Shown here: one piece after another, positions 1 to 15,197 of the stretch
How positions within the stretch are numbered: position 1 is the stretch's first letter
How the letters are laid out: every line of letters starts with the position of its first letter
Assembly: GCA_945787595.1 (NCBI GenBank)
Contig: CALZJV010000192.1
Span: 1 to 16,955, forward strand
From: an uncultured Desulfobacterales bacterium
GTDB taxonomy: Bacteria > Desulfobacterota > Desulfobacteria > Desulfobacterales > JAFDCJ01
Direction of reading: 5' to 3'
DNA length: 16,955 bases
Notes under the pieces: model-generated
Seen by the model: the letters and a program-made list of their open reading frames with translations, nothing else
Database searches by the model: none
Told to the model about the DNA's origin: nothing
Translations under genes and position numbers: made by a program

Positions 1-26
1 TATTATACGTTTATGGGGTGGTTACC

Positions 27-118
27 GGGTAGGGCAGGGGCCTCACAGCCCCATTCCCCCCTAAGAACCACGCATGATAGTTTCCCATCACGGGACTCAA
101 GCATTTCAAAGGACACCC
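27..118 (-). mobile_element. Group II intron 3' end remnant (domains V and VI)
   Basis: On the minus strand, 98 down to 65 form a 34-nt hairpin with a GAAA tetraloop and the group II domain V pattern (starts GAG, ends GGUUC). This is followed by a G-rich/C-rich hairpin (64 to about 30) and a CCTACCC tract, as expected for domain VI with its branch-point A and the intron 3' end. The catalytic triad, normally AGC at domain V positions 2-4, reads AGU here, and there is a C-U mismatch at stem position 6, so it is probably inactive. No reverse transcriptase/maturase ORF follows on the 5' side, where cassette sequence starts within about 60 bases; the fragment is therefore 5'-truncated. The exact 5' limit and the 3' splice junction (near 27-30) are uncertain. 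Confidence 0.6.
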
Positions 119-272: not shown

Positions 273-611
273 CTAAGAAATGAGATAATATACGCTTCCC
301 AAAACTCCCAAAATCATAAGTGCGTAGCTAAACCAGTATGAAAACTTAAAGGGCTTCCGCATCTGTTTTGATCCCCAGCTATTCCAGATACCTTTTTGAA
401 ATTGTGAAATTTTTGAGATTAGCAGAAGTATAAATCCTGCCATTGTCATAATTATTGAGTCAATAGCAAGCTGTTGGAAATTGTGAAAGTATCGGGGAAT
501 CAATAGCATTGCAATAATTCCAATGATTACGATCAAAATTTCAAAAGGGATAGAAACAGAATATATTGACTTTTTGTTAGCGTCGTTTTTACGGTAAATC
601 CAAATTGACAT
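273..611 (-). CDS. Small integral membrane protein of cassette 6
   Basis: This 112-residue protein is not recognised. It is strongly hydrophobic, with three likely membrane helices at about residues 25-43, 50-68 and 93-111 and a basic loop (GSKQMRKPFK) between the last two, so it should sit in the inner membrane. The start chosen is the ATG at 611, preceded by an AAGGTG ribosome site. The reading frame is open further upstream, but that part lies inside the preceding attC (635-761) and is unlikely to be translated. Gene, short 5' leader and following attC-like site have the layout of an integron gene cassette (sixth from attI). Its AT-rich composition differs from the metabolic genes to the right. 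The stop is TAG. Function is unknown. Confidence 0.65.
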   Translation of the reverse strand: MSIWIYRKNDANKKSIYSVSIPFEILIVIIGIIAMLLIPRYFHNFQQLAIDSIIMTMAGFILLLISKISQFQKGIWNSWGSKQMRKPFKFSYWFSYALMILGVLGSVYYLIS

Positions 612-634
612 TAAATTCACCTTAATGTGGATGC

Positions 635-761
635 ATATAACGGCGGCGGTCAGGGGCAGCCAGGGCGCCCACTGACGTTTAAAAAGATGATTAAGTCCAT
701 TTTTACCTGATATGGTGGAAACGGCTCGGTCCTGGCTGTCCACTGAACTGCCTGGTTATGC
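635..761 (-). repeat. attC recombination site of cassette 5
   Basis: On the minus strand the site runs from GCATAAC (761-755, R'') to GTTATAT (641-635, R'), about 127 bases. The outer edges mirror each other (GGATGCATAAC against GTTATATGCATCC). The inner arms also pair: TTCAGTGGACAGCCAGG on one side, and the reverse complement of the other side reads GTCAGGGGCAGCCAGG. Symmetry with a few unpaired bases is the hallmark of attC sites, which are recombined as folded single strands. The stop codon of the cassette 5 gene lies in the R'' box. Confidence 0.75.
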
Positions 762-1241
762 ATCCAACTTTCTTTGTATTTGCATTAATAAATCTAAAAC
801 ATTAACTTTTTTTCCTGCACTTAGCTTAATTTCAGATCTTCTGTATGCTTCATGTACAAAGTTTCTCGTTTCAATCAATGTTTTATTCAAGCTCCTGATG
901 TGATCGGATTCACTTTGGTATATAATTTTCATTCTTTCAATAAAAGTGACAATTTCTGTCTTATTGTACCAACGCTTTTTTGCAGAAACTTTACCTCTTA
1001 TAGTATATTCAGAGCCATCATTATCATCCCAGAGGACTATTTCACCGGTTTTTAAATCATAATTGCCTACTATAAGTTCTCTATCATTGCTTAGAATTCT
1101 ATCATCATAAACAGCATCGTGAACAGTGAGGTCAATGACGTCATCATCAATAGAAAGATCTAAAATAGACCAGTGCGGAGAAGCTGATATCAATAGTACA
1201 CTGTCTTCTTTGCTAATTTGATTTACAAGAAGTTCAGTCAT
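756..1241 (-). CDS. Uncharacterised protein of cassette 5
   Basis: This 161-residue acidic, soluble protein is not recognised. The N-terminal two thirds is rich in alternating hydrophobic and acidic residues, probably beta-strands (around DLSIDDDVIDLTVHDAVYDD). The C-terminal third is charged and helical (from about residue 98 to the end), with no signal peptide or membrane segment. The start is the ATG at 1241, with AGAAGAA just upstream. A longer open frame reaching 1310 would begin inside attC4, so it is rejected. The gene is flanked by attC4 (1253-1320) and attC5 (635-761), a complete cassette unit, and is transcribed in the same direction as the other cassettes. Function cannot be read from the sequence. 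Confidence 0.7.
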   Translation of the reverse strand: MTELLVNQISKEDSVLLISASPHWSILDLSIDDDVIDLTVHDAVYDDRILSNDRELIVGNYDLKTGEIVLWDDNDGSEYTIRGKVSAKKRWYNKTEIVTFIERMKIIYQSESDHIRSLNKTLIETRNFVHEAYRRSEIKLSAGKKVNVLDLLMQIQRKLDA

Positions 1242-1252
1242 AGGTTCTTCTG

Positions 1253-1320
1253 CGAATAACGAATTGCTCACCAGGGAGGGCCGCTTTTTGGCCCGAACCT
1301 GGTGAAGCAAAATGTTATGG
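1253..1320 (-). repeat. attC recombination site of cassette 4
   Basis: This is the clearest short attC in the window. The minus strand reads CCATAAC (R'', 1320-1314), then an arm ending TTGCTTCACCAGG, a short loop, CCTGGTGAGCAATTC and GTTATTC (R', 1260-1254). The arms pair almost perfectly with one extra unpaired T, the extrahelical-base arrangement that sets strand choice for integron integrases. Total length is about 67 bases. It lies 14 bases after the stop of the cassette 4 gene. Confidence 0.85.
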
Positions 1321-1334
1321 TTTGCTCCAATGCA

Positions 1335-1748
1335 TTAGCTTCCTGGCCTGTTGTAAACTTTTATAACTTCCATTTTTGCGATGTTTATGACAACGGCTAT
1401 GTGAAGCCCCTTAATTCCATCTACTCCAATTAAGAATGTCACTAACTTCGGATTTGATTCTTCGAATTCATAGCCAACGATACTATCGTAATTATAATCC
1501 TTAGAAATAGGAAAGGGCAGATTCATAGGCCCAGGATTATCTGGAAAATTGTCTGTTTTGATCCCTTTTGAGATGTTTTCAAAGCACGTGTCAATGGCCT
1601 CAATCGAAAGCGAAAGCACCTCACTCATCTTCACCTCATATGAAGATATTTTAAGAATCTTTTCCTGTCGAGATTCTTCACTTGTGCCCGAGGACGGCAT
1701 CAAATTGACCAAAAAAATGAAAATCAAAACAAAGATGCGTTTTAACAT
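1335..1748 (-). CDS. Secreted uncharacterised protein of cassette 4
   Basis: This 137-residue protein has a clear N-terminal signal peptide: basic MLKR, a hydrophobic core of about 13 residues (IFVLIFIFLVNLM) and a small-residue stretch (PSSGTS) for cleavage. No lipobox cysteine is present, so it is likely a periplasmic or exported soluble protein rather than a lipoprotein. The mature part is acidic with no recognised domain; an internal segment (VTFLIGVDGIKGLHIAVVINIAKMEV) looks like two beta-strands with a turn. The start is the ATG at 1748, with GGACGGGG upstream. An R'-like GTTATGG (1767-1761) lies just before it and attC4 follows the stop, so this is the fourth cassette. Function is unknown. 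Confidence 0.7.
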   Translation of the reverse strand: MLKRIFVLIFIFLVNLMPSSGTSEESRQEKILKISSYEVKMSEVLSLSIEAIDTCFENISKGIKTDNFPDNPGPMNLPFPISKDYNYDSIVGYEFEESNPKLVTFLIGVDGIKGLHIAVVINIAKMEVIKVYNRPGS

Positions 1749-2032
1749 AGCCCCGTCCTACCATAACAATTGAGTAGTGCGCAAAAAGGCGCCATATCAA
1801 CAACGAAAACCCAATTGTAAAGTTAAATGTTTAATTAATACGATTACATAAATAACATCCGGTAACATATTGAAACCGGAAAATTGCGCATTTTTGCGCA
1901 ATATCCCGATATGCGTGAATTTTTGCGCAATATCCACTGTAATTCAGGTGATATTGAGAAATTTTTCTCAATATCGCTTGAGCTCATTGGTTTTCATGAG
2001 CGCCAGCGAATGAAAATCCAGTGCAGCGATTT
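1749..2032. other. Gene-free 280-base segment between cassettes 3 and 4
   Basis: No credible gene is present. From left to right it holds an R'-like box (1761-1767), an AT-rich stretch (about 1790-1880), three palindromes (1883-1975) and the arms of a truncated attC (1974-2032). The adjoining cassettes are normally separated by one attC of 60-130 bases, so roughly 200 bases here are extra. Confidence 0.6.
1883..1975. repeat. Array of three related palindromes
   Basis: Three palindromic units sit in a row. At 1883-1902, ATTGCGCA and TGCGCAAT flank a four-T loop. At 1909-1935, GATATGCGTGAA faces an imperfect TTGCGCAATATC. At 1950-1975, GATATTGAGAAA and TTTCTCAATATC form a perfect 12-bp inverted repeat with only two bases between. 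All carry a T-run centre, and two contain the same TTTTTGCGCAATATCC core. They may be operator sites, a transcription stop or a small palindromic mobile repeat. A double-HTH gene lies immediately to the right (2047-2481). Confidence 0.7.
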
Positions 2033-2040
2033 GTTAGGGC
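1974..2040 (-). repeat. Truncated attC of cassette 3 (R' lost)
   Basis: Seven bases after the stop of the HTH gene the minus strand has GCCCTAAC (2040-2033, R''). The next arm, TCGCTGCACTGG, pairs with the reverse complement of 1974-1990 (TCGCTTGAGCTCATTGG) with extra bases, and an inner TTTTCAT/ATGAAAA pair closes the stem. Where GTTAG should follow the AAGCG of the left arm, the sequence instead enters the perfect palindrome at 1950-1975. The site has therefore lost its R' core and is probably not recombinable. Confidence 0.65.
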
Positions 2041-2046
2041 TTTCTT

Positions 2047-2481
2047 TTATAGTTTATCAAGAAGTAATCGTAATGGAAGACCAAGTATCAAGGCAAACTG
2101 TTTGATGGCATTAAGGGCTATAACAACGTCATCTCGATCTTCTTCGATTGCTTGTATTACGTTTTGTTCATATCCAATGTAGTCCGCCAAATCAGTGATA
2201 GAATAACCCAATTCTTCTCTTCTTGCTCGGATAAGGGATGATAAAGGCAAATCTCGAAGATTAGAGGCTGGTATATCGGCATATTCTACTGAATTAATAT
2301 CGAGGGCCTTGCAATACAATTTAAACTCTCGGATTGACAGACCATCTATGTCGTTGTCATCACCCGATTCAAAATCCCATATTCGGCTTTCATCGAAATT
2401 TGGTCCTATGAGCGAAGCCAGTTCTGATTCACTCAAGCCTTTTTTAATTCGTTTTTCCTTAAAATATTTGCCTATCAACAT
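2047..2481 (-). CDS. Double helix-turn-helix protein of cassette 3
   Basis: This 144-residue protein appears to contain two XRE/Cro-type helix-turn-helix domains. The first is at about residues 5-60 (GKYFKEKRIKKGLSESELASLIG, then an arginine/acidic recognition stretch). The second is at about 80-140 (SLIRARREELGYSITDLADYIGYEQNVIQAIEED, then a hydrophobic closing helix). It is probably a DNA-binding regulator or antitoxin-like protein, but no toxin partner is adjacent. The start is the ATG at 2481, with AAAGAAG upstream. A longer frame to 2571 would begin inside attC2 and is rejected. It is the third cassette, flanked by attC2 and the truncated attC3. The palindromes at 1883-1975, just past its 3' end, are possible binding sites; this is inference. 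Confidence 0.7.
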   Translation of the reverse strand: MLIGKYFKEKRIKKGLSESELASLIGPNFDESRIWDFESGDDNDIDGLSIREFKLYCKALDINSVEYADIPASNLRDLPLSSLIRARREELGYSITDLADYIGYEQNVIQAIEEDRDDVVIALNAIKQFALILGLPLRLLLDKL

Positions 2482-2499
2482 TGTGATCTTCTTTGTGAG

Positions 2500-2606
2500 C
2501 CCTAACCCGCCGCCGGTGAGCAGCGGCGCAAATTCATGACAAGTATGCACGGCCTTTATGTAAAACCGCAATCTTTACACCGTCTGCTCCAGTGGTTTTG
2601 TTAGCT
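2500..2606 (-). repeat. attC recombination site of cassette 2
   Basis: The minus strand runs from AGCTAAC (R'', 2606-2600) to GTTAGGG (R', 2506-2500), 107 bases. The inner arms pair with extra bases: CACTGGAGCAGACGG against the reverse complement of the other side, CCGGTGAGCAGCGG. The loop contains TGCGGTTTTACATAA, almost identical to the loop of attC1, so the two sites are related. R'' lies one base after the stop codon of the cassette 2 gene. Confidence 0.85.
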
Positions 2607-2607
2607 C

Positions 2608-3189
2608 TCAAAGCGGCAAATCCTTCAGCTCTTCCGGCACCTTGGAAGGGTGCTTCCGATATATGGGTTCAGCGATGGATGAAAATACCTCACTAATCAC
2701 CTTTCCAACGCCGTACGCAAGCTTCTTGTAGTCTTCCACTGAAAACTCATTCTTTAGGCCTTTAAGTAAATCGGTTAGCAGCACATTACAGGAATACGCC
2801 GCATTTAGAATCAGCTCAGCATCTTCTTCGATCGTAGAAAGCGATTTCTTCTCTTTCAGAGAGCTCTTAATTTCGAGTGGCACATCCGCTGGTGCCTCAG
2901 GCATAACTTCGATAGTTATATTGTCCCCGGCCTCCAAATCAGAGCCTAGCCATTTCAAGTATTTTGTATCTTCTGGATTGTTTGTGTCATAACCGTTTAA
3001 GGCAATATCCATCTTCGGTTGTCCATAACCGATTTTGTTGTCTATGTTTATATAAGCACCCAGATGACCCTTGCCGCATATCTCGCCTGTTGATATATGG
3101 TGACCATTTATACCAATGCGAATTTTAATATCATTTTCCTTCTTGAGAGCTAACCAGCGGGCCAAAGAATTTTCAAGCTGGCTCGGCAC
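2608..3189 (-). CDS. Uncharacterised protein of cassette 2 (start uncertain)
   Basis: This protein of up to 193 residues is not recognised. The N-terminal half looks beta-rich (from IKIRIGINGHHIS to about residue 95, ending NITIEVMP). The C-terminal half is helical, including NAAYSCNVLLTDLLKGL. No signal peptide or membrane segment is seen. The frame opens at a GTG (3189) inside the upstream attC1, without a good ribosome site, and has no ATG before residue 60. After the R' box a strong AAGAAGGA is followed by an in-frame ATT (3129) and by an out-of-frame ATG (3136-3134) that gives only eight codons. The real start may be the rare codon ATT, the GTG in attC, or an ATG lost by a frameshift. 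The stop abuts attC2. Function is unknown. Confidence 0.6.
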   Translation of the reverse strand: MPSQLENSLARWLALKKENDIKIRIGINGHHISTGEICGKGHLGAYINIDNKIGYGQPKMDIALNGYDTNNPEDTKYLKWLGSDLEAGDNITIEVMPEAPADVPLEIKSSLKEKKSLSTIEEDAELILNAAYSCNVLLTDLLKGLKNEFSVEDYKKLAYGVGKVISEVFSSIAEPIYRKHPSKVPEELKDLPL

Positions 3190-3238
3190 TTACATAAAAC
3201 CGCATAGTTTTTCCCGTCAGGTTCATCTCTTTGTTAGC
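3149..3238 (-). repeat. attC recombination site of cassette 1
   Basis: The minus strand runs from GCTAAC (3238-3233, R'') to GTTAGC (3154-3149, R'), about 90 bases. The arms pair as CCTGACGGG against the reverse complement of the other side, CCAGCGGG, leaving one unpaired base. The loop carries TGCGGTTTTATGTAA, shared with attC2. It follows the stop of the TerB-like gene by four bases. Confidence 0.8.
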
Positions 3239-3242
3239 AAAT

Positions 3243-3776
3243 TTACCATTTTTTAAATTTCTCCTTTTTGGGGGTAAAAATATCTTTGACTTTCGCCAAT
3301 AATTCTTTCTGTTTCTCGTTTGGATCACCTTCACAAAATGCGACTTTTTCGACTAACGAAAAGGCTGATTGTTTTTGTTCATCTGCAAAGTTGTCTATGC
3401 TTGGTCTGATGAATTTTTCCAAATTGTTTTTTATTTGGTTTTCATCTCTGATAAAAAAGCTGCAATTTGAAAGGAGATCGGTCGCTTCTCCAGCAGAAAG
3501 TTTGAAAACGTTCTTAAAAATTGAGAGTATACATGATTTTTCTTCACGTGAAATATCACCAGAACATTTAGCCATTGTATACATGAGACCAGCGGTGGCC
3601 TTCATTGGATCATCAATATCAAACACTGGATTCGAATGATAGGCTTGTCGCCATTTGCGTCTTCTGTTCCATTTGAATGGATCGAGCCAACCAATATCAA
3701 TTCCTACGTCTGATAACCTTTTTACTAAAATTAAGATGGTTACTATTAAACCTAGTGCTCCTAAAATAACATGCAT
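3243..3776 (-). CDS. Membrane-anchored TerB-like protein of cassette 1
   Basis: This 177-residue protein has one N-terminal membrane helix (about residues 3-19, VILGALGLIVTILILV) and a basic linker (KWNRRRKWR, about 35-43). It continues into a helical soluble domain (about 57-168) resembling the TerB/tellurite-resistance fold. Two related helical repeats are visible, one around MYTMAKCSGDISREEKSC and one around VEKVAFCEGDPNEKQKE, each with an acidic turn like the metal-binding loops of TerB. TerB-family proteins act at the inner membrane in stress or phage-defence complexes; that role is not shown here. The start is the ATG at 3776, with a strong GGAGGAAG nine bases upstream. It is the first cassette after attI and the first gene downstream of the predicted Pc promoter, so it should be the best expressed of the array. 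Confidence 0.65.
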   Translation of the reverse strand: MHVILGALGLIVTILILVKRLSDVGIDIGWLDPFKWNRRRKWRQAYHSNPVFDIDDPMKATAGLMYTMAKCSGDISREEKSCILSIFKNVFKLSAGEATDLLSNCSFFIRDENQIKNNLEKFIRPSIDNFADEQKQSAFSLVEKVAFCEGDPNEKQKELLAKVKDIFTPKKEKFKKW

Positions 3777-4062: not shown

Positions 4063-4869
4063 ATGGAAGATTTCAGGTCTTATCTATTATCACACCCGGC
4101 ACAAATCCCAAACGGAAGCCAAAGCCGACTCACAATCCGACATACTCTGGCGGGCGGTGGCACAAGACATGATCAATGTGTTGCGCTTAAAACACCGTGC
4201 CCTGAGCACTGAGAAAGCCTACCTTGGCTGGCTGCGATCTTTTTACCGATTCGTGAACGGTCTACCCCCGCAAGAGCTTGATAGCAGCCACGTCAAAGAT
4301 TTTTTGTCTGATCTTGCAGTTGAACGGAATGTGGCTCCTTCGACCCAGAACCAGGCTTTCAATGCCATACTTTTTCTATTCCGTTATGTACTCGACAAAG
4401 ATCTTGATGATATCGAAGGAAGCGTTCGAGCTTCCAAAAAACGCCGGTTGCCAGTAGATTGACGCAACAAGAGGTTTTTCGACTGTTTGACCACCTCAAC
4501 GGGATTTGCCTGTTTATGTCGCGGTTGATATACGGCGGCGGACTGCGTTTGAAGGAATGCCTGCGGTTGAGAGTTAAGGATATTGATTTTGAAAGGGATT
4601 GCATGATCGTCAGATCCGGCAAAGGTGATAAAGACCGGGAGACGGTTCTTCCCGAAAGCCTAAAAAATGATCTTCGGCAACATTTGGAAAAAGTTAGGGA
4701 TCTTTATGAAAGTGATCGTGCGCGAAACGTTGCCGGGGTTTACCTGCCGGGTGCTTTGGCACGCAAGTATCCCCATGCGGGCAAGGAGTGGGCTTGGCAA
4801 TGGTTGTTTCCTTCGAAAACGCTATCTGTTGATCCAAGGGCGCGACAGATAAGATCAAATTACGGCTCG
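4063..4869 (+). pseudogene. intI: Integron integrase IntI, multiply broken
   Basis: This is a tyrosine recombinase of the integron-integrase family. It carries the N-terminal core-binding domain (RLKHRALSTEKAYLGWLR and following) and the first part of the catalytic domain: GGGLRLKECLRLRVKDIDF contains the box I arginine, and SGKGDKDRETVLPESL follows. The IntI-specific patch ALARKYPHAGKEWAWQW is also present. Three lesions are visible. (1) A plausible start (ATG 4063, GGGG upstream) reads MEDFRSYLLSHPAQIP, then the homology shifts frame to HKSQTEAKADSQSDILW, so much of the extended N-terminus is missing. (2) Near 4459 one T is missing (PVD-stop instead of PVD-LTQQEV). (3) Homology ends near 4854 after SVDPRARQIR, before box II (HxxR) and the catalytic tyrosine. 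The enzyme cannot be functional. Its position and divergent orientation relative to the cassettes are classical. Confidence 0.85.
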
Positions 4870-5194
4870 TGTCAGATTCCCAAGTATGATTCTAAATAAT
4901 TGAGCAACGTAAAGTCAGGTCTGGGCCAGGGGGTTCAACGTTCCGGGTTGCAAAACACCCGACCAACGCTTATCAAAGGGATTCGGCCTTCATCGTTTTA
5001 CCAGTGCCTTTTCACCCAATGGGTGAATTCGGGTAGTACGGGACTCGATCAATATTTTAAACATTTTCAAATAGTTATAACCTTTGAACCGTGAACCTGG
5101 AACCGATCAGTTTAGGAGAAAGATAAAGATAAGAAGTTGCTTTGTTTTTTCAACCCGGAACGTTGAACCCCGAACCCCTGAACCTATATAACAC
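4870..5194. other. Gene-free spacer with inverted and GAAC-type repeats
   Basis: No gene is seen. Two copies of an 18-bp sequence face each other: GGTTCAACGTTCCGGGTT at 4932-4949 and its exact reverse complement at 5152-5169. The left copy continues the GGTCTGGGCCAGG motif (4918-4930) that recurs at 13442 and 13646. Spaced GAACC words occur at 5086-5104 and 5158-5185. Confidence 0.7.
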
Positions 5195-6928: not shown

Positions 6929-6956
6929 TTGCGAAAATTATTTATTGCCTTATAAA
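6929..6956 (+). promoter_or_regulatory. Possible promoter of the MttB-family gene at 7071
   Basis: TTGCGA (6929-6934) and TATAAA (6951-6956) are separated by 16 bases and point to the gene starting at 7071, leaving a leader of about 105 bases. The match is modest and the area is AT-rich, so a chance hit is possible. Confidence 0.35.
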
Positions 6957-6967
6957 ATTCCATGTGT

Positions 6968-6995
6968 TGTATATGAACCAACCAGGTTATGTCAA
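6968..6995 (-). promoter_or_regulatory. Promoter of the isomerase-crotonase operon
   Basis: The minus strand reads a perfect TTGACA (6995-6990), 16 bases, then TATACA (6973-6968), about 90 bases upstream of the isomerase ATG. It overlaps the divergent control region shared with the MttB-family gene. Confidence 0.5.
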
Positions 6996-7070
6996 GAAAC
7001 GGTTATTTCCCATTTTTTTATTTCTACAGACAATCATCGACGGGCGAGTGACCCGAATAAGGAGTCGATC

Positions 7071-8531
7071 ATGGAACTAAAAGGACTTACAGGGGGTTTA
7101 TACCAACCGCTATCCTCTGCAGATATCGAAACCATTCACCAGGCGGCGCTGACTATTTTGGAGAATACCGGCATCACTTATGAATCCGGCCTGGAAGAAA
7201 CCATTGCTATGCTTGAAGCACAGGGGGCCAAGGTGGACAGAGAACGAGCCAGAGTTTTTTTCCCCAAAGACCTGGTTGTAACCCAGGCGGCCAGGGCGCC
7301 CGAGCGCGTCATTTTGTTCAGCCGCGATGGAAAAAATGACCTGGATCTTACCCAACACCGCGTTTACCTTGGAACAGGCGGGGCGGCCATTAAAATTCTA
7401 GATCTTGAAAGCGGCCGGGCACGATCCACCACATTGAACGATTTGTATCAACTCGGAAGACTGGTGGATGCGCTGGATAATATCCATTTTTTTCTTCGGC
7501 CCTGCATACCGACCGATATCTCTGAAAACGACTACGATGCCAACGTTTTTTATACCTGTTTAAAAGCTACGGGCAAGCATGTCATGGCCGGGGTAAATGA
7601 TGTGGCAGGGTTTCATAAAGCTTTGGACATCGCCGCGATGGTTGCCGGTGATAGGGCAAAATTAAAAGATAAGCCTTTTATTTCAATAATAACTTCGTTT
7701 GCCATCAGCCCGTTGAAGCTTTGCACGCAATCGACATTGATCATGCAGGAAGCGGTCAAGAATCGAATTCCGGTTGCACTCTCCAGTGCCCCCATGGCAG
7801 GTTCGACCTCCCCGCTGACCATGGCCGGCACTCTGGCTCAGCTCCATGCCGAGCAGCTTGCCGGAATTGCCGTTTGCCAGTTAACCAACCCCGGCGCACC
7901 GATCTTATACGGCGGTATACCCGGCATGGCAAATCTTAACAGCTTCGGGTATCTGGGCGGTGCTGTCGAGTGCGGCATGATGAATGCCGCCATTCACCAG
8001 CTGGCAAATCATATTAAAGTACCGAATTACAATTCAGCAGGACTGGCCGAATCGAAAATCCCCGATGCGCAAGCCGGCTGGGAAAAAGCCTTAACTGTAC
8101 TGCTGGCAGCCATGGGTGGCTCCAACTATGTCCACCATGCGGCCGGCATGCTGGAGTCCATGCTGACCGTGGCCTTTGAACAATATGTTATCGATGATGA
8201 GATTATCGGAATGTGCTGCAAAGTTCTTAAAGGCATTGAAGTGGATCCCGAACATCTGGCCCTGGAAGCCATCGATGAAGTCGGACCGGGAGGCAATTTC
8301 ATTGCCTCAGATCACACCTTTGCCCACATGCGCAAAGAATATTTTGCAGGAAACGGCGTTACGGACCGAATGATTCGGGATGATTGGGAGCTGGAAGGTT
8401 CGCAAGATGCCGCAGCACGGGCACGAGAGATTGCCAAAACAATTTTAGCGCAAGAAGAAAAATCTTATATTCCCGCTGAAGCGGCGCAGGCCATCCGGAA
8501 GAAGTACAACATTATCGGTGAAAAATCTTAG
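7071..8531 (+). CDS. MttB-family (COG5598) corrinoid-dependent methyltransferase, non-pyrrolysine
   Basis: This 486-residue protein is of the trimethylamine methyltransferase (MttB) superfamily. Typical segments include an N-terminal helix pair (DIETIHQAALTILENTGI), LGTGGAAIKILDLESG, LDNIHFFLRPCIP, a glycine-rich barrel region (YGGIPGMANLNSFGYLGGA), AGLAESKIPDAQAGWEKA and a C-terminal VGPGGNFIASDHTFAHMR. The frame is unbroken with no in-frame TAG, so it lacks the pyrrolysine of true MttB. Non-Pyl members such as MtgB demethylate quaternary amines (glycine betaine, proline betaine, carnitine), passing the methyl group to a corrinoid protein. No corrinoid protein or methylcorrinoid:folate transferase is in the window. 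The start is the ATG at 7071 after AAGGAGTCGATC; an open frame from 6945 has no ribosome site and is rejected. Confidence 0.85.
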   Translation: MELKGLTGGLYQPLSSADIETIHQAALTILENTGITYESGLEETIAMLEAQGAKVDRERARVFFPKDLVVTQAARAPERVILFSRDGKNDLDLTQHRVYLGTGGAAIKILDLESGRARSTTLNDLYQLGRLVDALDNIHFFLRPCIPTDISENDYDANVFYTCLKATGKHVMAGVNDVAGFHKALDIAAMVAGDRAKLKDKPFISIITSFAISPLKLCTQSTLIMQEAVKNRIPVALSSAPMAGSTSPLTMAGTLAQLHAEQLAGIAVCQLTNPGAPILYGGIPGMANLNSFGYLGGAVECGMMNAAIHQLANHIKVPNYNSAGLAESKIPDAQAGWEKALTVLLAAMGGSNYVHHAAGMLESMLTVAFEQYVIDDEIIGMCCKVLKGIEVDPEHLALEAIDEVGPGGNFIASDHTFAHMRKEYFAGNGVTDRMIRDDWELEGSQDAAARAREIAKTILAQEEKSYIPAEAAQAIRKKYNIIGEKS

Positions 8532-8783: not shown

Positions 8784-10085
8784 TTATCCTTCGTCAATCA
8801 TCGTTCGTCGTTCGAAGCAGGCGGAAAGCTCTTCACCGATAATGTTCAGAACAAAAGGCAGGTGCATTTCCGGTACAGGTCCGGCGGGTGTCTCCGGGAG
8901 GATGATCGTGCTGCTTACCGGAAATCTGTAAAGCGCCTCTTTCGCTTTTCCGTTCAGAAAAGCTTGCTGGGTTATAAGGATCATCCGGGGATATCGGCTG
9001 CCGAAAGTTGATATCTCGTCTATGGCTTTGTCTAAATACCGGTCCCAGGTAGCATCCATCACGATGAGGTTGTCATTTAATGTATTATAATCCGGTTGAA
9101 GTTCCGGAAGATACCAGGCCTCATCTGCAAAAAAAGGGGTTTTTTCTTCATAGGAGGGATCGACCGGCGGTGCATTGATAAATTCATCCATTGTTTTTCC
9201 GGCAAAATAACTTTTTTCCCATAATACTACTTTTTCCCGGCCGAATTTTAACAGCATTTCATTTCTGCCCTCGAGTTTTACGAATTTGGCATCAACCCTG
9301 GAATCGACAGTTACCAGCGGGCCATGAGCACTTTTTCCAAACAAATGCTGTTCACAAAGCATCGTTCCAGTCCTGTCGAATTTGTCTGACCATGCCAGAC
9401 CAATTCCGGCCGGAGGTCCAATATAGAACATGGTTTCATATTTCTTGTTGACGGCCATGCTCGTTGATATAGCCGCCTTAAGGTCCGGCTTACCAAGCAC
9501 GTCAAGCACTGTTTCAGCGCTTTTTCTGAAATGCTCGCCCACGATTTCGGCCTTTTCAGGAAATGCTGTGCACCAGGCATTGATAAAAATCAGGTGGATT
9601 GCTGCATACAGATAATCCCTTCGCGAATACTCAAAGCCGTTTTTCAGCAAAAACTTCCCGCCGTTTTTTTGGGCCGGCTCGTGATCACGGAAACCGGTTT
9701 CCGGTTCCAGCCGGAACACGGGGCTCGAGACCGTCGCAAGTCGTTTTGTCAGCCGCTTTTGCCCTGCAGGTGAAGATGCCGCCGTAAACAGGAGAATATT
9801 GTTGTCAAACGCGCATAGGGGTGCTTCGGGCGAAATGATCCGCACCGGATAACCCAGAAAGCGGCTCCAGATACGGCCTGCATTTTTTACTGCGGCTTCC
9901 GAGATTCGATCCATGGGTGCAAATACGATTTCGTCTATATCCGAATTATCGTCAAAAAGATATTGCGCAAGCCGGGTTGTGTTTTCATCCATCGCCCGAC
10001 ATATCTCGTCCCCCAAATCCTTTGAAGAAATTATTGCGGCCAGCTCACGCATCTCTTCATAACCATATGCTTCTGCGCTCTGCAT
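8784..10085 (-). CDS. SIS-type partner protein of the GlmS-like gene
   Basis: This 433-residue cytoplasmic protein resembles the isomerase half (two SIS domains) of GlmS. Numbered from the ATG, the first SIS-like part is about 35-170, with DIDEIVFAPMDRISEAAVKNAGR and a loop LLFTAASSPAGQ where GlmS has SQSGET. The second part, from about 210, contains EQHLFGKSAHGPLVTVD (245-261). This matches the GlmS segment ending in KHGPLALID, so His254 corresponds to GlmS His504 and Lys235 to Lys485, while Glu488 is replaced (Arg238). The C-terminus ends ERRTMIDEG, without the PRNLAKS tail that carries Lys603. It lacks a glutaminase domain. The ATG at 10085 overlaps the end of the upstream GlmS-like gene by 29 bases (TTG at 10100 is an alternative), implying coupled translation and probably a complex. 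Exact activity is unknown. Confidence 0.7.
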   Translation of the reverse strand: MQSAEAYGYEEMRELAAIISSKDLGDEICRAMDENTTRLAQYLFDDNSDIDEIVFAPMDRISEAAVKNAGRIWSRFLGYPVRIISPEAPLCAFDNNILLFTAASSPAGQKRLTKRLATVSSPVFRLEPETGFRDHEPAQKNGGKFLLKNGFEYSRRDYLYAAIHLIFINAWCTAFPEKAEIVGEHFRKSAETVLDVLGKPDLKAAISTSMAVNKKYETMFYIGPPAGIGLAWSDKFDRTGTMLCEQHLFGKSAHGPLVTVDSRVDAKFVKLEGRNEMLLKFGREKVVLWEKSYFAGKTMDEFINAPPVDPSYEEKTPFFADEAWYLPELQPDYNTLNDNLIVMDATWDRYLDKAIDEISTFGSRYPRMILITQQAFLNGKAKEALYRFPVSSTIILPETPAGPVPEMHLPFVLNIIGEELSACFERRTMIDEG

Positions 10086-13000
10086 GTTCTGACGGGGCAA
10101 CCATCGCTTTCAAGCCTTCATTTAGATTTTTTATTTTCGACAGCTCTCTGGCCGGGGAAGCAACCTTCGCGAACAGACTCCGCCCGACGGTCATGGATTT
10201 GGCCAGGTTGCGGGGCGCGACGCCCATGGCTATACCGTGGGACTGACCATAGAAAAACGCAAGCTGGTAATAAAAGACCAGAGTTACGAGCGGTTGCATT
10301 GCATTTTTTTTCAAACCGGAAAGGAAGATGCAACGGTTGCGGCTCAACTGCCGGATACGTTCCTCCTGCCGACGTTCTAAACCGACTGCAGCAAATTTTA
10401 TCCTTTTACGATAAAGCAGCTCCATGACGTCAAGAGCTTCGTCAAGTCGCGGCGTACAGGTGGCGTCGACCACCACCAGTACGCATGCTAAATCGGCAGG
10501 CAGGCCCGTTTCCATCACCTCCTGATAGTCCAAAGCTCTACCTATTGCCGACCAGCTGTTCTCCTCCAGCTTCAGTGCTATTTCCTTTCCTGCACCGTTG
10601 GTAAAAAGGGCACTGACAACGATGCTGGCTTTATTTTGCGCATTTTCACGAGCCAGTCTTTTTGAAAATCTCTTGACGGTTTCATCTTCAAGAAGATTGG
10701 CAAGCACGTACGGGATCCGATGCATTTTTTCCAGGTGCAAAAGGGCTTCTTGCTTTCTGCCCTTGTGCGATGCCAACCACAGGCAGAACAGCTTTAAACA
10801 AAAAAGCATGCAAACCGTGCTCTTGACGTCGGAAACGGTGACTTCCTCACCGCTCAAGGCCGGAATTAAACCGCCGCTTTTGGCGACAATAAGGGCCATG
10901 TCGGCAAAAGTCTTTTCGGTGATACCGGTCATGATCACTTTGAGCGACTGGAGCTTCTTCGCCAAAAAGACCATGTCCGCCGTGGTCGAAGACCAGCTTA
11001 ACAGGATAACCAGGTCTTTTTCCGGAACGAACAGGGTTTCCGGATTTTCAATATCACCGGGCCTGACGGTCAACGCATCCATCTCCGGCATAATGGCATG
11101 GATAAAGTTTTTTGCGATTTCACACATGTGAAAAGCACTTCCGGTCCCGGCCAGTACAATCCGTTTAAGACCCGTGAAATTTGAGCCGAACCGACGGCGC
11201 AACAGGTTTTTTCTGATTCCCAGATCCGTAATCCCGTCCTCCTCCGGTGCATAATTTCCCAGTATTGTCAGAAGCCGCTGCGGTATTTCAGCCAGATGCG
11301 TTTCATAAAAAGACCGGTCCATGTCCTTCTTAACCTGGATGGGGTTTAAAACAGTCGCAAAAGGCTCCAGATCCGGCAGGCGCTGACCCTTGAAATCGGT
11401 AATCGTCACGCTGCGGCAGATGCTGCCGTCTAGTATTAATGGTTCTATGCGGGCAAATTTTTCTTCGCCCTCAAGAGCGTGGACCTCTACGGAAAATGCC
11501 TTTAGAATATCAGCTTTTTCTTTTTCAAAGACCTTTTTGAGCGCTTTTGAATCTTGCGCACCGGCACTTTTCCCCTTTAGCCCGGCAACTTTTTTAATAT
11601 GGTGTTCTTCCAGTCTTTCAAGCGCTTCTCGTTTTTCATAGATAAGCTGCTGGGGAAAGAGTCCTATAGCCGCGTTGATGTCGGAAACCACCATAAAATC
11701 ATCGTTCTCCAGCCGGCGGACCACAAATACAGGCCGGTTGTGGGCTGCCACATAAAGCCTTCGCGGAGATAAGATGCTGATTCCGCAGACGGCCACCTGA
11801 CCTCCGTTTTTCGATATCTGTTTGGCTGCTTCTATGAACGCCGCTTCATCCAGTTGTGCGGGTGTTTTGCCCTTGACTGTGCGATGAACCGAATAGTCTA
11901 TTACACTGCTTCCGATTCCGTGTTCCTGGAGATCATTTTCCACCTGGGTCAATACGGCCCCGTACCTTCGCTGTGCCTGGATCAATTGGTCAAAATAATA
12001 TCCCCAGAGAAGGGAGAGATACTCGGCGGAATTTTCACTGCGGAAAGAAAAGTTTGCGACTTTGGTAAGAAATTTACGGATGCTGTCCTCTGTTTTTCCG
12101 TCAAACTGACCGTTTACAACCACACTTCTAAATCGTTTTTCGTCCAGGAAGGGATGGGCGTTTGTTACAGTGACAGCCGACTGAAGCGCCCATCTTCCGT
12201 GAGCGACAACCGGCTGGGTAAAATATCTCAGGCTGACCGGGTCGCTCTGCCCCGGGACGATCGAAGCTTCCGTCATAATGTCATTGCGGGAAAGCTCGCT
12301 TAGCATATCAGTCAAAAAATCGTCGCGCTGCAGACACATCAGCGCTGCTGCTGCAGCCCTGCCGTAAATGTTTACGCCTTTTTCAGCTCCGTACAGACGT
12401 CTCCACTCCACAGGTCCGGGACGTTCATGGCGCGGCCAGGAAGCTTCCAGTATTTTTTCAAGGGATTCGATAAGGTCGGGCCTGGCCGCCGTTCTGGCAA
12501 GAAGGGCTACGTCCAGTAGCCGGAACAGGCAGCATACCCCGTCCCTATCGTAATCCGAAGGGATTTCAATGGCTGTTTCCGGCAGACAGCGCCATAGTGA
12601 TTTCAAGGCAGCCGGGTTTGGGGAAACTATCCTGCTGCCGCTTACGGCGGACTTTATCATCATTATGGCTGAAAGCGCTTTTTCAAATATTCGGTCAAAG
12701 GTGTGCAGGATATCGGCAGGTTCGGCACTAATCAGACCTGTGGCCTTTTTCGAGGCTATTGTTGTAATCAGCGGTTTGCGAATTATTTCGCGGATGACCA
12801 CCGGCGAAAGGTCATATTCTTTGATAAGTCGCCTGACAAAATTTATAAGATCTTTCCTTGAACGGATGAAAAAGGAGATATCAAAGCTCGGCCGGCCCGG
12901 CTGGCCGGGATTTAGTCGGCAGGGCCGCTCGGCCTTCAAGTCGACAAGCTCATCATATGCGGGATAGGGTGCTTCACCTTTAGTCACTTTTTCAAATTGA

Positions 13001-13308
13001 TCGAAGGGCAGCCCTTCGAAAGCGATAAGGCGTTGTTGCTGCTCCACCATCTTTTCACGATCGGAGCCTTGCGACCAGACGGATAACAACCGATTCTCAG
13101 GGTTCAGGTAGGCGCCATTGTCTAAAAGAGTTTCGACGAGCCTTTCCACGGAACCGACCGCTTTTCTAGTTCTGACCGGTTCGTTGTCGTCACCGAACAT
13201 GGCTACGCCGGTACTGTCCGGCGCCCTGTAAATAATGGCTGACATACCTGTCAGCACCCTGGTGAGATTGTTGCCAGCCCCTCCGAAATACGCCACAATT
13301 CCACACAT
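10057..13308 (-). CDS. Giant GlmS-like glutamine amidotransferase / SIS protein
   Basis: This 1083-residue protein compares with about 609 for GlmS, which makes glucosamine-6-phosphate from fructose-6-phosphate and glutamine. The N-terminus MCGIVAYFGG gives the Ntn nucleophile Cys2 after Met removal, and YRAPDSTG (27-34) follows. The continuation of the same domain, HGRWAL (370-375), TNAHPF (382-387) and VNGQFDG (398-404), comes only after about 300 extra residues (about 70-365) of unrecognised, helical sequence. RLYVAAHNRPV (517-527) ends the glutaminase part. SIS1 spans about 714-850 (AGTGSAFHM; SWSSTTAD for SQSGET) and SIS2 about 876-1045, ending in PRNLAKSMTV with Lys1037 equal to GlmS Lys603. 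Lys913 and Glu916 match Lys485 and Glu488, but His504 is missing (METG for KHGP). Two glutaminase-loop residues (Thr76, His77) are also changed. The ATG has AGGGAAAATATC upstream. The substrate is probably a phosphosugar, but not established. Confidence 0.8.
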   Translation of the reverse strand: MCGIVAYFGGAGNNLTRVLTGMSAIIYRAPDSTGVAMFGDDNEPVRTRKAVGSVERLVETLLDNGAYLNPENRLLSVWSQGSDREKMVEQQQRLIAFEGLPFDQFEKVTKGEAPYPAYDELVDLKAERPCRLNPGQPGRPSFDISFFIRSRKDLINFVRRLIKEYDLSPVVIREIIRKPLITTIASKKATGLISAEPADILHTFDRIFEKALSAIMMIKSAVSGSRIVSPNPAALKSLWRCLPETAIEIPSDYDRDGVCCLFRLLDVALLARTAARPDLIESLEKILEASWPRHERPGPVEWRRLYGAEKGVNIYGRAAAAALMCLQRDDFLTDMLSELSRNDIMTEASIVPGQSDPVSLRYFTQPVVAHGRWALQSAVTVTNAHPFLDEKRFRSVVVNGQFDGKTEDSIRKFLTKVANFSFRSENSAEYLSLLWGYYFDQLIQAQRRYGAVLTQVENDLQEHGIGSSVIDYSVHRTVKGKTPAQLDEAAFIEAAKQISKNGGQVAVCGISILSPRRLYVAAHNRPVFVVRRLENDDFMVVSDINAAIGLFPQQLIYEKREALERLEEHHIKKVAGLKGKSAGAQDSKALKKVFEKEKADILKAFSVEVHALEGEEKFARIEPLILDGSICRSVTITDFKGQRLPDLEPFATVLNPIQVKKDMDRSFYETHLAEIPQRLLTILGNYAPEEDGITDLGIRKNLLRRRFGSNFTGLKRIVLAGTGSAFHMCEIAKNFIHAIMPEMDALTVRPGDIENPETLFVPEKDLVILLSWSSTTADMVFLAKKLQSLKVIMTGITEKTFADMALIVAKSGGLIPALSGEEVTVSDVKSTVCMLFCLKLFCLWLASHKGRKQEALLHLEKMHRIPYVLANLLEDETVKRFSKRLARENAQNKASIVVSALFTNGAGKEIALKLEENSWSAIGRALDYQEVMETGLPADLACVLVVVDATCTPRLDEALDVMELLYRKRIKFAAVGLERRQEERIRQLSRNRCIFLSGLKKNAMQPLVTLVFYYQLAFFYGQSHGIAMGVAPRNLAKSMTVGRSLFAKVASPARELSKIKNLNEGLKAMVAPSEHAERRSIWL

Positions 13309-13751: not shown

Positions 13752-15197
13752 CTATTTTCCTTTTACTAGTTCCTTTTCACCCTTTTGCCGAATTGTCTTC
13801 AAGGCGGCCAATGTGTTGCCCGGCAGCGCAGGCGCTTCATGATTTTTGACGATATCTTCAAGTTGTTCCTGAATGCGGGTGGCCAGATCTTTGGCGCCTT
13901 GGCTTTGCCAATCATCACTGGCGGATCGTGTCATCAAACCCGGCATCCAGAGCTCGCTTTTGAAATGATCATAAGTATGATCTTGATCGAGAAAATGGCC
14001 GCCGGGACCAACCTTTTCGATCAGCTCGCGGGCCAGGGTTTCATGGTTGACTTCGATGCCTCTAATAAAGCGTTTGGCCATCCCGATGTTTTCGTTACCC
14101 AGAATTAATTGGGCGGTGGAACAGACCATACCGTTATCCATATACCCCACATCGTGGATAAGGTTGAGTCCGCCCAAACCCTGTGCCAGGATGGAGAAAG
14201 CGGATTCCGACCCGGCCTGGGCATCCAGCACTTTAGCGTCGGTCGATCCGGCCAGCCCCCAGGAGGGCAGCCCGAAGGATTGTGCCACCTCGGCCTGGGC
14301 TGCGAGGGCAAGGCTCATCTCCGGTGCGGCGATGGACAGGAGGCCGGCGGTCATATCAAAAACGGCAAAATTGCAACCCAGACTGCAGGGGCAGCCGGGC
14401 TTACGTAGCTGAGCCAGGACCAGGCACATCAATGCTTCGGCCGTACCCTGGGCAATAGCTCCGGCCAGGGTTACCGGGGCCGTAGCACCGAATTGCATCG
14501 TGGGCCCCTGAATTTGAGGCATAGCAAGATCCGCACAGACAAAGAGGCGGTCGATCACATCCGCCGGAAAGACCAGCGGGGAAATCGGCTCGGGATAAAA
14601 AATAACAAAAGGCCGCTGCTGAAGATTATCGCTTCCGCCGGCGACTTCGGTAGCCATTTCATATACAAGCGCAACCCCGCGAGGCGTGTATCCTATAAAA
14701 ACGATTGGTTTGATGGTATTGGTCACAACGGCCTCGAACTCGTACAAGTCGGCAACCGTGGGCGGGACATCCTGGACGGATCCCATGGGCATGACCCAGT
14801 CGATGTTCGGCAGGGCGTCAGCCACCTTGGCTCCGATCGCAATATCGGCAACGCGGGTGGGATGAATTTCACCGCTGAACGCATCCTTGGTGGACGTGCC
14901 GTAGTAGCTCTTGCGGCCCTCTATTTCCATGGCCCGGTTTCCCCCACGATCATAGATTGTCCAGCCTTTGGGTGCGGAACTGAGACACCCGCTAACGATG
15001 TGTTCAGGTACTTTAACAATCTCATCAACGACCAAAGCTCCCGCCTGCTTCAGCATTTTACGGGCGCCTTCGTGATAAATCCTGAAACCCACCTTGGACA
15101 TTACTTCAAAAGCGGTGCGCCTGATTTCCACAATTTGGTCGTCGGTGAGTATCCGGAACGAAACCGATCTTTTCTCAATTGAACCTGTTTGAATCAT
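13752..15197 (-). CDS. Second MttB-family (COG5598) methyltransferase, non-pyrrolysine
   Basis: This 481-residue protein belongs to the same superfamily as the gene at 7071 but is only distantly similar. Shared landmarks are the N-terminal helix pair (DQIVEIRRTAFEVMSKVGF), YYGTSTKDAFSGE followed by ADALPNIDWVMPMG, the central glycine/alanine-rich barrel, GSTDAKVLDAQAGSESA, and the C-terminal RGIEVNHETLA plus VGPGGHFLDQDHTYDHFK. The frame is open without internal TAG. It should transfer a methyl group from an N- or S-methylated substrate to a corrinoid protein, which is not encoded here. The ATG has a very strong GAGGAGGGACT upstream. Translation ends at TAG followed immediately by in-frame TAA. 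The gene lies upstream of the GlmS-like pair on the same strand, separated by 443 bases of repeats, so it is probably a separate transcript. Confidence 0.85.
   Translation of the reverse strand: MIQTGSIEKRSVSFRILTDDQIVEIRRTAFEVMSKVGFRIYHEGARKMLKQAGALVVDEIVKVPEHIVSGCLSSAPKGWTIYDRGGNRAMEIEGRKSYYGTSTKDAFSGEIHPTRVADIAIGAKVADALPNIDWVMPMGSVQDVPPTVADLYEFEAVVTNTIKPIVFIGYTPRGVALVYEMATEVAGGSDNLQQRPFVIFYPEPISPLVFPADVIDRLFVCADLAMPQIQGPTMQFGATAPVTLAGAIAQGTAEALMCLVLAQLRKPGCPCSLGCNFAVFDMTAGLLSIAAPEMSLALAAQAEVAQSFGLPSWGLAGSTDAKVLDAQAGSESAFSILAQGLGGLNLIHDVGYMDNGMVCSTAQLILGNENIGMAKRFIRGIEVNHETLARELIEKVGPGGHFLDQDHTYDHFKSELWMPGLMTRSASDDWQSQGAKDLATRIQEQLEDIVKNHEAPALPGNTLAALKTIRQKGEKELVKGK

Follow-up and report, generated by a model that had tools for sequence, protein, structure and literature searches.

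A disrupted copy of what is probably a single-chain GlmS-like pseudo-dimer gene in an uncultured Desulfobacterales bacterium

Two overlapping open reading frames (ORFs) in a 16,955-nt stretch of an uncultured Desulfobacterales bacterium (contig CALZJV010000192.1; the whole stretch that was analyzed is called the window below) are, by comparison with their relatives, two halves of one gene. An earlier note, made from the DNA letters alone, had proposed that they encode the partners of a heterodimeric sugar aminotransferase. The best explanation of the evidence as a whole is a disrupted copy of a gene for a single-chain GlmS-like pseudo-dimer, which we consider probable. Intact relatives are one protein, mostly ~1,480-1,880 aa long, that spans both window ORFs, and database matches place this GlmS-like family mainly in Desulfobacter-type bacteria. 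The simplest account of its residue pattern would be one composite site, built across two modules of one chain.

The interrupted gene and its relatives

The gene and its parts lie on the minus strand of the window as follows.

8784..13308, minus strand: disrupted single gene, with a GATase2 domain, a helical insert, module 1 (SIS1-SIS2-tail) and module 2 (SIS3-SIS4); from the two-frame alignment of P0003 and from L001, which is open across the junction
10057..13308, minus strand: first ORF (the "giant"), 1083 aa, terminating shortly past the junction after the frame has shifted; from the ORF list
8784..10100, minus strand: second ORF, 438 aa, a linker remnant and module 2 (SIS3-SIS4); from the ORF list and the P0003 alignment
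10061..10063, minus strand: frameshift junction, where nt 3446-3480 of L001 (35 nt) are absent from the window; from the P0003 and L001 alignments

The two ORFs overlap by 44 nt, and the protein P0003 (1518 aa) runs through both of them: its residues 1-1082 match window positions 13308-10063 (90% identical), and its residues 1095-1514 match positions 10061-8802 in a different frame (89% identical), both without gaps. The nearest DNA relative, L001 (JAFDDW010000255.1), has a single open frame with 35 additional nt at the junction, and its DNA identity to the window is 88-89% near the junction and 91-92% across the coding parts. Against L001, in which the frame with these 35 nt stays open all the way, the window gene is interrupted by a deletion of 35 nt. 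Judged by these alignments, the gene is disrupted in the window, and the cause would be either a mutation or an assembly error. All near-invariant positions (159/159, both halves together) are kept in the window, and the two parts have dN/dS values of 0.21 and 0.26 against L001, indicating that the break is recent or artificial. A programmed frameshift was rejected: the gene differs from L001 by a 35-nt deletion, and inspection by eye showed no slippery site.

Searching with the first-ORF protein, in which the 7,990 candidates sharing most words were scored, gave 399 relatives, 120 of which were listed. Among these 120, 115 have lengths of 1,483-1,850 aa and cover 96-100% of the first ORF, and the remaining five have 762-1,287 aa (P0033, 1002 aa; P0034, 762; P0042, 1287; P0073, 1077; P0100, 1187, named partial). 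Scanning a collection of 84,980 species genomes yielded 62 related loci, by title mostly from deltaproteobacterial (Desulfobacter-type) metagenome-assembled genomes (MAGs) and from three Spirochaete MAGs, with Desulfacinum hydrothermale, D. infernum and Desulfospira joergensenii as isolates. In 51/62 loci, an ORF no shorter than 1,400 aa reads through the linker in one frame, and in the other 11 the match breaks off 23 bases or less from the end of the contig. Three of the 51 (L001, L014, L035) run into a contig end further along, and in another (L005) the first ~12 residues lie outside the open frame.

A module-2 profile was positive in 5/395 genomes of the Desulfospira phylum (ORFs of 1,508-1,862 aa), in 1/198 genomes of one Spirochaete phylum (1,881 aa) and in 31/291 genomes of the Desulfospira order, where the ORF has 1,478-1,882 aa in 27/31; of the other four, G720, G607 and G724 are shorter and by coordinates at a contig end, and G732 has 845 aa. 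In a set of 5.8 billion proteins (7,998 candidates sharing most words scored), 19 proteins with module 2 were found, on contigs of less than 5 kb except for P0134 on 11 kb, and none of these 19 could be recognized as a whole stand-alone module-2 protein. P0073, whose longest contig has 219 kb, terminates in the linker; its 88% relative, at 1531 aa, forms one ORF, so that P0073 is most likely another lone break rather than a second natural split. With P0033, P0034, P0042 and P0100 left aside, no relative was seen to encode the giant alone as a lasting arrangement.

On this gene structure (the read-through loci, the lengths of the ORFs that hold module 2 and the relative of P0073), we rejected the earlier proposal of two partner genes, whose separate products would join to form one enzyme having a composite site: relatives carry the two parts fused in one ORF, and the apparent pair results from the 35-nt deletion. 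Both pieces do keep their near-invariant residues under purifying selection relative to L001, the break falls in a linker, which might bear being split, and P0073 ends there likewise; nevertheless, the loci are either in one frame or cut by contig ends, module 2 sits in long ORFs, and the second ORF starts at TTG with no clear Shine-Dalgarno sequence seen by eye, which together make a genuine heterodimer very improbable. The split itself might be an assembly or sequencing artefact with the gene intact in the organism, which is compatible with the disrupted-copy explanation and which we would put a little short of even. Neither half has decayed and the near relative L001 is intact, but a 35-nt gap would be unlike ordinary read errors; the integron integrase of the window (4157-4899) is also broken, a state that would suit decay or poor assembly.

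Active-site residues of the two modules

The positions that matter for catalysis, numbered as in P0003, are listed below. Counts refer to 166 relatives, which include near-copies and some proteins entered as both P and L, the effective number of sequences being ~102 at 80% identity.

13303..13305, minus strand: Cys2, the glutaminase nucleophile, in 162/166 relatives; from the alignment
12244..13158, minus strand: helical insert of ~300 residues (51-355) within the glutaminase domain; from the model and the alignment
10174..11343, minus strand: module 1, SIS1-SIS2 and C-terminal tail, with the GlmS isomerase fold
10561..10584, minus strand: helix with Glu909, Lys913 and Glu916 (GlmS Glu481, Lys485 and Glu488); from the HMM-HMM alignment
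10198..10200, minus strand: Lys1037 in PRNLAKS (GlmS Lys603), in 166/166; from the HMM-HMM alignment
9324..9326, minus strand: His of AHGPL (GlmS His504; P0003 residue 1340), in 149/166; from the alignment

The first ORF scores 94.2 bits against the GlmS model TIGR01135, for which the curated cut-off is 418. Features of the GlmS equivalog that are present include the N-terminal Cys glutaminase and the two-SIS isomerase with equivalents of Lys485, Glu488 and Lys603, the first two of which are missing from 15/166 relatives. The earlier note had assigned these residues by eye, and the HMM-HMM alignment agrees with it, placing K913, E916 and K1037 (APRNLAKSMT) on K485, E488 and K603 of E. coli GlmS. 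It had also seen METG (932-935) in place of the His504 motif; residue 933 (E in P0003 and in the window) does fall on His504, and His is rare in every column from 920 to 944 (0-8/166), so a GlmS-type His504 in the SIS2 of the same chain is absent from module 1. Contacts to the sugar phosphate are kept at Ser347 (150/166), Ser349 (166/166) and Thr352 (163/166) and changed at Gln348, which is Trp in 166/166, and at Ser401, which is Gly or Ala in 147/166.

Module 2 has the reverse pattern in most respects. The AHGPL motif is found in the downstream ORF, as first noted, with the His at residue 259 counted from TTG or 254 counted from Met6, and across the family H is conserved in 149/166, G in 149/166 and P in 146/166. 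The Lys485 that had been ascribed to this part did not hold up: at the equivalent column (P0003 1321, by gapless counting back from HGPL) K occurs in just 28/166, which means that this lysine is not conserved as a catalytic residue. The absence of Glu488 and of the lysine tail was borne out, as column 1324, counted back in the same way, has R in 66, Q in 46 and E in 8 of 166, and a PRN-K tail occurs in 0/166, the window ORF itself having no PRN tail. HGP and the lysine tail are thus each kept in one part, HGP in module 2 and the tail Lys in module 1. No conserved serine/threonine loop was found among the 166 at the aligned place in SIS3. The second ORF had no match in Pfam (E <=0.1), NCBIfam (E <=0.01) or, by sequence, the PDB (E <=10), and the HMM-HMM comparisons of module 2 are weak both with E. 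coli GlmS, where HGPL falls on HGPL (single-comparison E 0.0027, probability 11%), and with module 1 (hhalign, E 0.0031, probability 10-11%).

The glutaminase insert varies from 276 to 342 residues across the family. A C-terminal extension of ~250-350 residues is found in L007, L012, L014, L015, L016, L023, L026, L045, L053 and L056, and one of at least 200 residues in 17/166 sequences, with a Pfam match worth naming in 0 of the three tested. Pfam gave no match to the insert, module 2 or the extension other than a weak one in L045 (E 0.037), which was disregarded as below its cut-off.

Joint states at K913, E916 and H1340 are KEH in 146/166 relatives, all three replaced in 15/166 and mixed in 5/166 (KDH in two, QEH in one, KEF in P0061 and KEY in P0122), so that in P0061 and P0122 the His is gone while K and E remain. 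The occurrence of K, E and H together in 146/166 relatives argues that the pattern is not chance. The 15 sequences without the three residues form one clade on a single long branch of a 55-row tree, indicating that the joint loss was one event; Desulfospira joergensenii (L028) is among those with the residues lost, and Desulfacinum (L023, L026) is of the KEH type. This clade has replaced 17 of 188 near-invariant positions, among them E909, K913, E916, H1340, G1341, P1342 and T1345, and kept 171/188, including Cys2 (14/15, one X), K1037 (15/15), R372 (14/15, one gap) and N399 (14/15, one T); the hypergeometric p for at least three of the four named catalytic residues being among its replacements is 0.002. 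In the covariation between modules, the 12 pairs that join the Lys/Glu helix to HGP are all among the 87 highest of 164,780, a signal that carries no weight because it comes from the single lost clade. Without that clade, the SIS2-SIS4 pairs show no excess (12 in the top 50, the expectation being 11.0), and columns of the tail occur there more often than expected (18, the expectation being 3.1).

Predicted structures

The AF2 model of the giant has a mean pLDDT of 83.5 and a pTM of 0.72, and the four-SIS half of L002 (871 residues) was predicted with a mean pLDDT of 88.2 and a pTM of 0.90, values which suggest that the relative placement of the two modules in the L002 model is confident. In these predicted models, module 1 and the whole giant have the GlmS fold. 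Helices and strands alternate in the module 2 region of the four-SIS model; the best 50 VIA-align matches of this model were all on module 1, and none was of module 2 alone. Foldseek against viral models returned GlmS-named proteins of large viruses as top matches. A viral origin was rejected, as eight stretches matched a pattern and none was a relative, and so was a defence system, PADLOC having given no match.

A composite site within one chain

We propose that ammonia set free by the N-terminal glutaminase (Cys2) would pass into module 1 (SIS1-SIS2 and the Lys tail), which is without the trans-acting His of GlmS, and that the degenerate module 2 (SIS3-SIS4) of the same chain would pack as a built-in other subunit and supply the HGP His. 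The outcome would be one composite site for amination and isomerization, the second site presumably being dead with its phosphate loop, Glu and tail missing. In such a division, one module would hold the Schiff-base lysine, the base and the phosphate loop, and the other would lend only the histidine. The lack of a conserved His at the His504 position of the giant, the conservation of HGP in module 2 and the joint K/E/H loss fit this idea; the complementary losses from which the earlier note had derived a composite and a dead site thus suit the residue pattern of the family, on a single fused chain rather than on two genes. A His from the other subunit is documented for human GFAT-1, namely His577* (PMC7000685).

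Against the composite site stand the single joint-loss event, P0061 and P0122, the two KDH and one QEH states, and the weak homology of module 2. Module 2 could instead be a regulatory or structural pair of domains, with HGP staying outside the active site of module 1. The weak sequence homology to GlmS, the lack of SIS2-SIS4 covariation beyond expectation once the lost clade is removed and the two proteins that have K and E without His would all agree with this, but it would leave module 1 alone with no conserved trans-His, and E909, K913, E916 and HGP were lost jointly in one clade that retains 171/188 near-invariant positions. For these reasons, a regulatory or structural role of module 2 away from the site seems unlikely to us.

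Gene neighbourhood and possible substrate

Two methyltransferase genes adjoin the disrupted gene in the window.

13752..15197, minus strand: MttB-family methyltransferase upstream of the giant on the same strand, with no in-frame stop; a conserved kind of neighbour; Pfam MTTB, 1.3e-87
6945..8531, plus strand: second MttB-family methyltransferase, convergent; Pfam MTTB, 9.9e-105

The upstream ORF obtains 364 bits with the Pyl-type model, on which 525 is the mark. Within the convergent one, Rfam PYLIS_3 matches at 8043-8142 (plus strand, 51 bits), and no pyrrolysine codon or in-frame stop interrupts the frame.

Neighbours of the 62 loci were counted by tblastn (E 1e-10, 100 aa) in flanks of at most 9 kb per side, often shorter; matches to ATPases were left out, and those to permeases and pterin-binding proteins may include unrelated genes. 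MttB-type methyltransferases were found at 31 loci, MmgE/PrpD at 21, a betaine-type binding protein or permease at 20, corrinoid or pterin-binding (MtgA-like) proteins at 13 and subunits of sarcosine oxidase at 9. Any of the counted types occurred at 46/62 loci, and at 26/32 of those with at least 5 kb upstream. At six loci whose upstream flank is 5 kb or longer (L012, L014, L015, L021, L022, L056), none of the counted neighbours was found, so that the link to quaternary-amine genes is not universal. In a hand-chosen set of 15 host genomes, an MttB match lies within ~9 kb of the giant in 13, one of them weak (G010), where a Poisson estimate from match counts would expect 0.5; the two exceptions are G003, where the giant starts ~1.1 kb from the beginning of its contig, and G009, where the contig with the giant measures 9.5 kb. 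At 18/21 loci (L002, L006, L009 and L031 among them), a MmgE/PrpD gene in the same orientation precedes the giant and ends no more than 225 bp before it; this gene is further upstream in L003 and L027, and downstream in L005. This adjacency suggests that the two products might share a step in quaternary-amine pathways, although we know of no joint MmgE/PrpD step of such a kind there. Neither a SIS domain nor PrpD is mentioned in the consulted part of PMC8318568.

Canonical GlmS above the cut-off is found in 6 of the 15 host genomes, and the other nine have a GlmS-like ORF of 1,207-1,297 aa. With another GlmS-like gene in each of the 15, the family protein need not make glucosamine-6-phosphate, and, with Gln348 replaced by Trp and Ser401 by Gly or Ala, its substrate need not be a hexose phosphate. 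These two replacements point to a substrate other than fructose-6-phosphate. The enzyme would probably use glutamine to aminate a phospho-ketose-like substrate, and its place would be in quaternary-amine metabolism or close to it.

Comparison with known enzymes

GlmS/GFAT (TIGR01135, PF01380 SIS; E. coli GlmS, human GFAT-1) differs from the family, in which a ~1,480-1,880-aa chain has two modules, the glutaminase has a ~300-aa insert, and module 1 is without His504 and has the altered residues at 348 and, mostly, 401. The chains matched among the SIS enzymes NagB-II, FrlB and FraB are ~330 aa, with neither a glutaminase nor a second module. The large PurL (FGAM synthetase) is a single-chain glutamine amidotransferase with an internal pseudo-dimer, one site being live and one dead; its fold and reaction are unrelated, and the likeness is an analogy only. 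Another large GlmS relative in the same genomes, the ~1,260-aa ORF (L070-L078, 9/15 genomes), is a separate gene closer to GlmS (216-233 bits). It is present in the nine genomes without canonical GlmS above the cut-off, none being listed for the six canonical-GlmS genomes, and is thus an apparent large replacement of GlmS. No protein like that of the window was named in the titles and abstract beginnings of the open-licence papers that literature searches listed.

Other features of the window

An integron integrase (TIGR02249; 4157-4899, plus strand) is split over two frames and shortened. It points away from a low-GC series of six ORFs on the minus strand (273-3776), one TerB-like and one HTH, and two-copy short repeats (225-246 and 2582-2603) adjoin ORF ends there. 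Together, the integrase and the ORFs look like a chromosomal integron with cassettes. A group II intron match (24-100, minus strand; 44 bits, gathering 40) lies at the window edge next to the cassette-like ORFs.

Implications

The case warns that what looks like a complementary two-gene pair may be one frameshifted gene. If the pseudo-dimer explanation is true, the family would be a natural GlmS dimer in a single chain, one of its sites live and the other dead, and would make it possible to ask what a composite site owes to the second subunit and how an obligate homodimer turns asymmetric by fusion. We tentatively suggest that duplication and fusion made a GlmS homodimer into an asymmetric single chain, which was recruited to quaternary-amine clusters for an amination other than that of fructose-6-phosphate. 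One clade might later have shed the three isomerization residues together while keeping the glutaminase and the lysine, and so have become an amination-only enzyme. That clade, without Lys/Glu/His and with glutaminase and Schiff-base lysine, would be a natural separation of amination from isomerization, and the link to MttB/betaine-type clusters points to an as yet unassigned step, dependent on glutamine, in the anaerobic use of quaternary amines.
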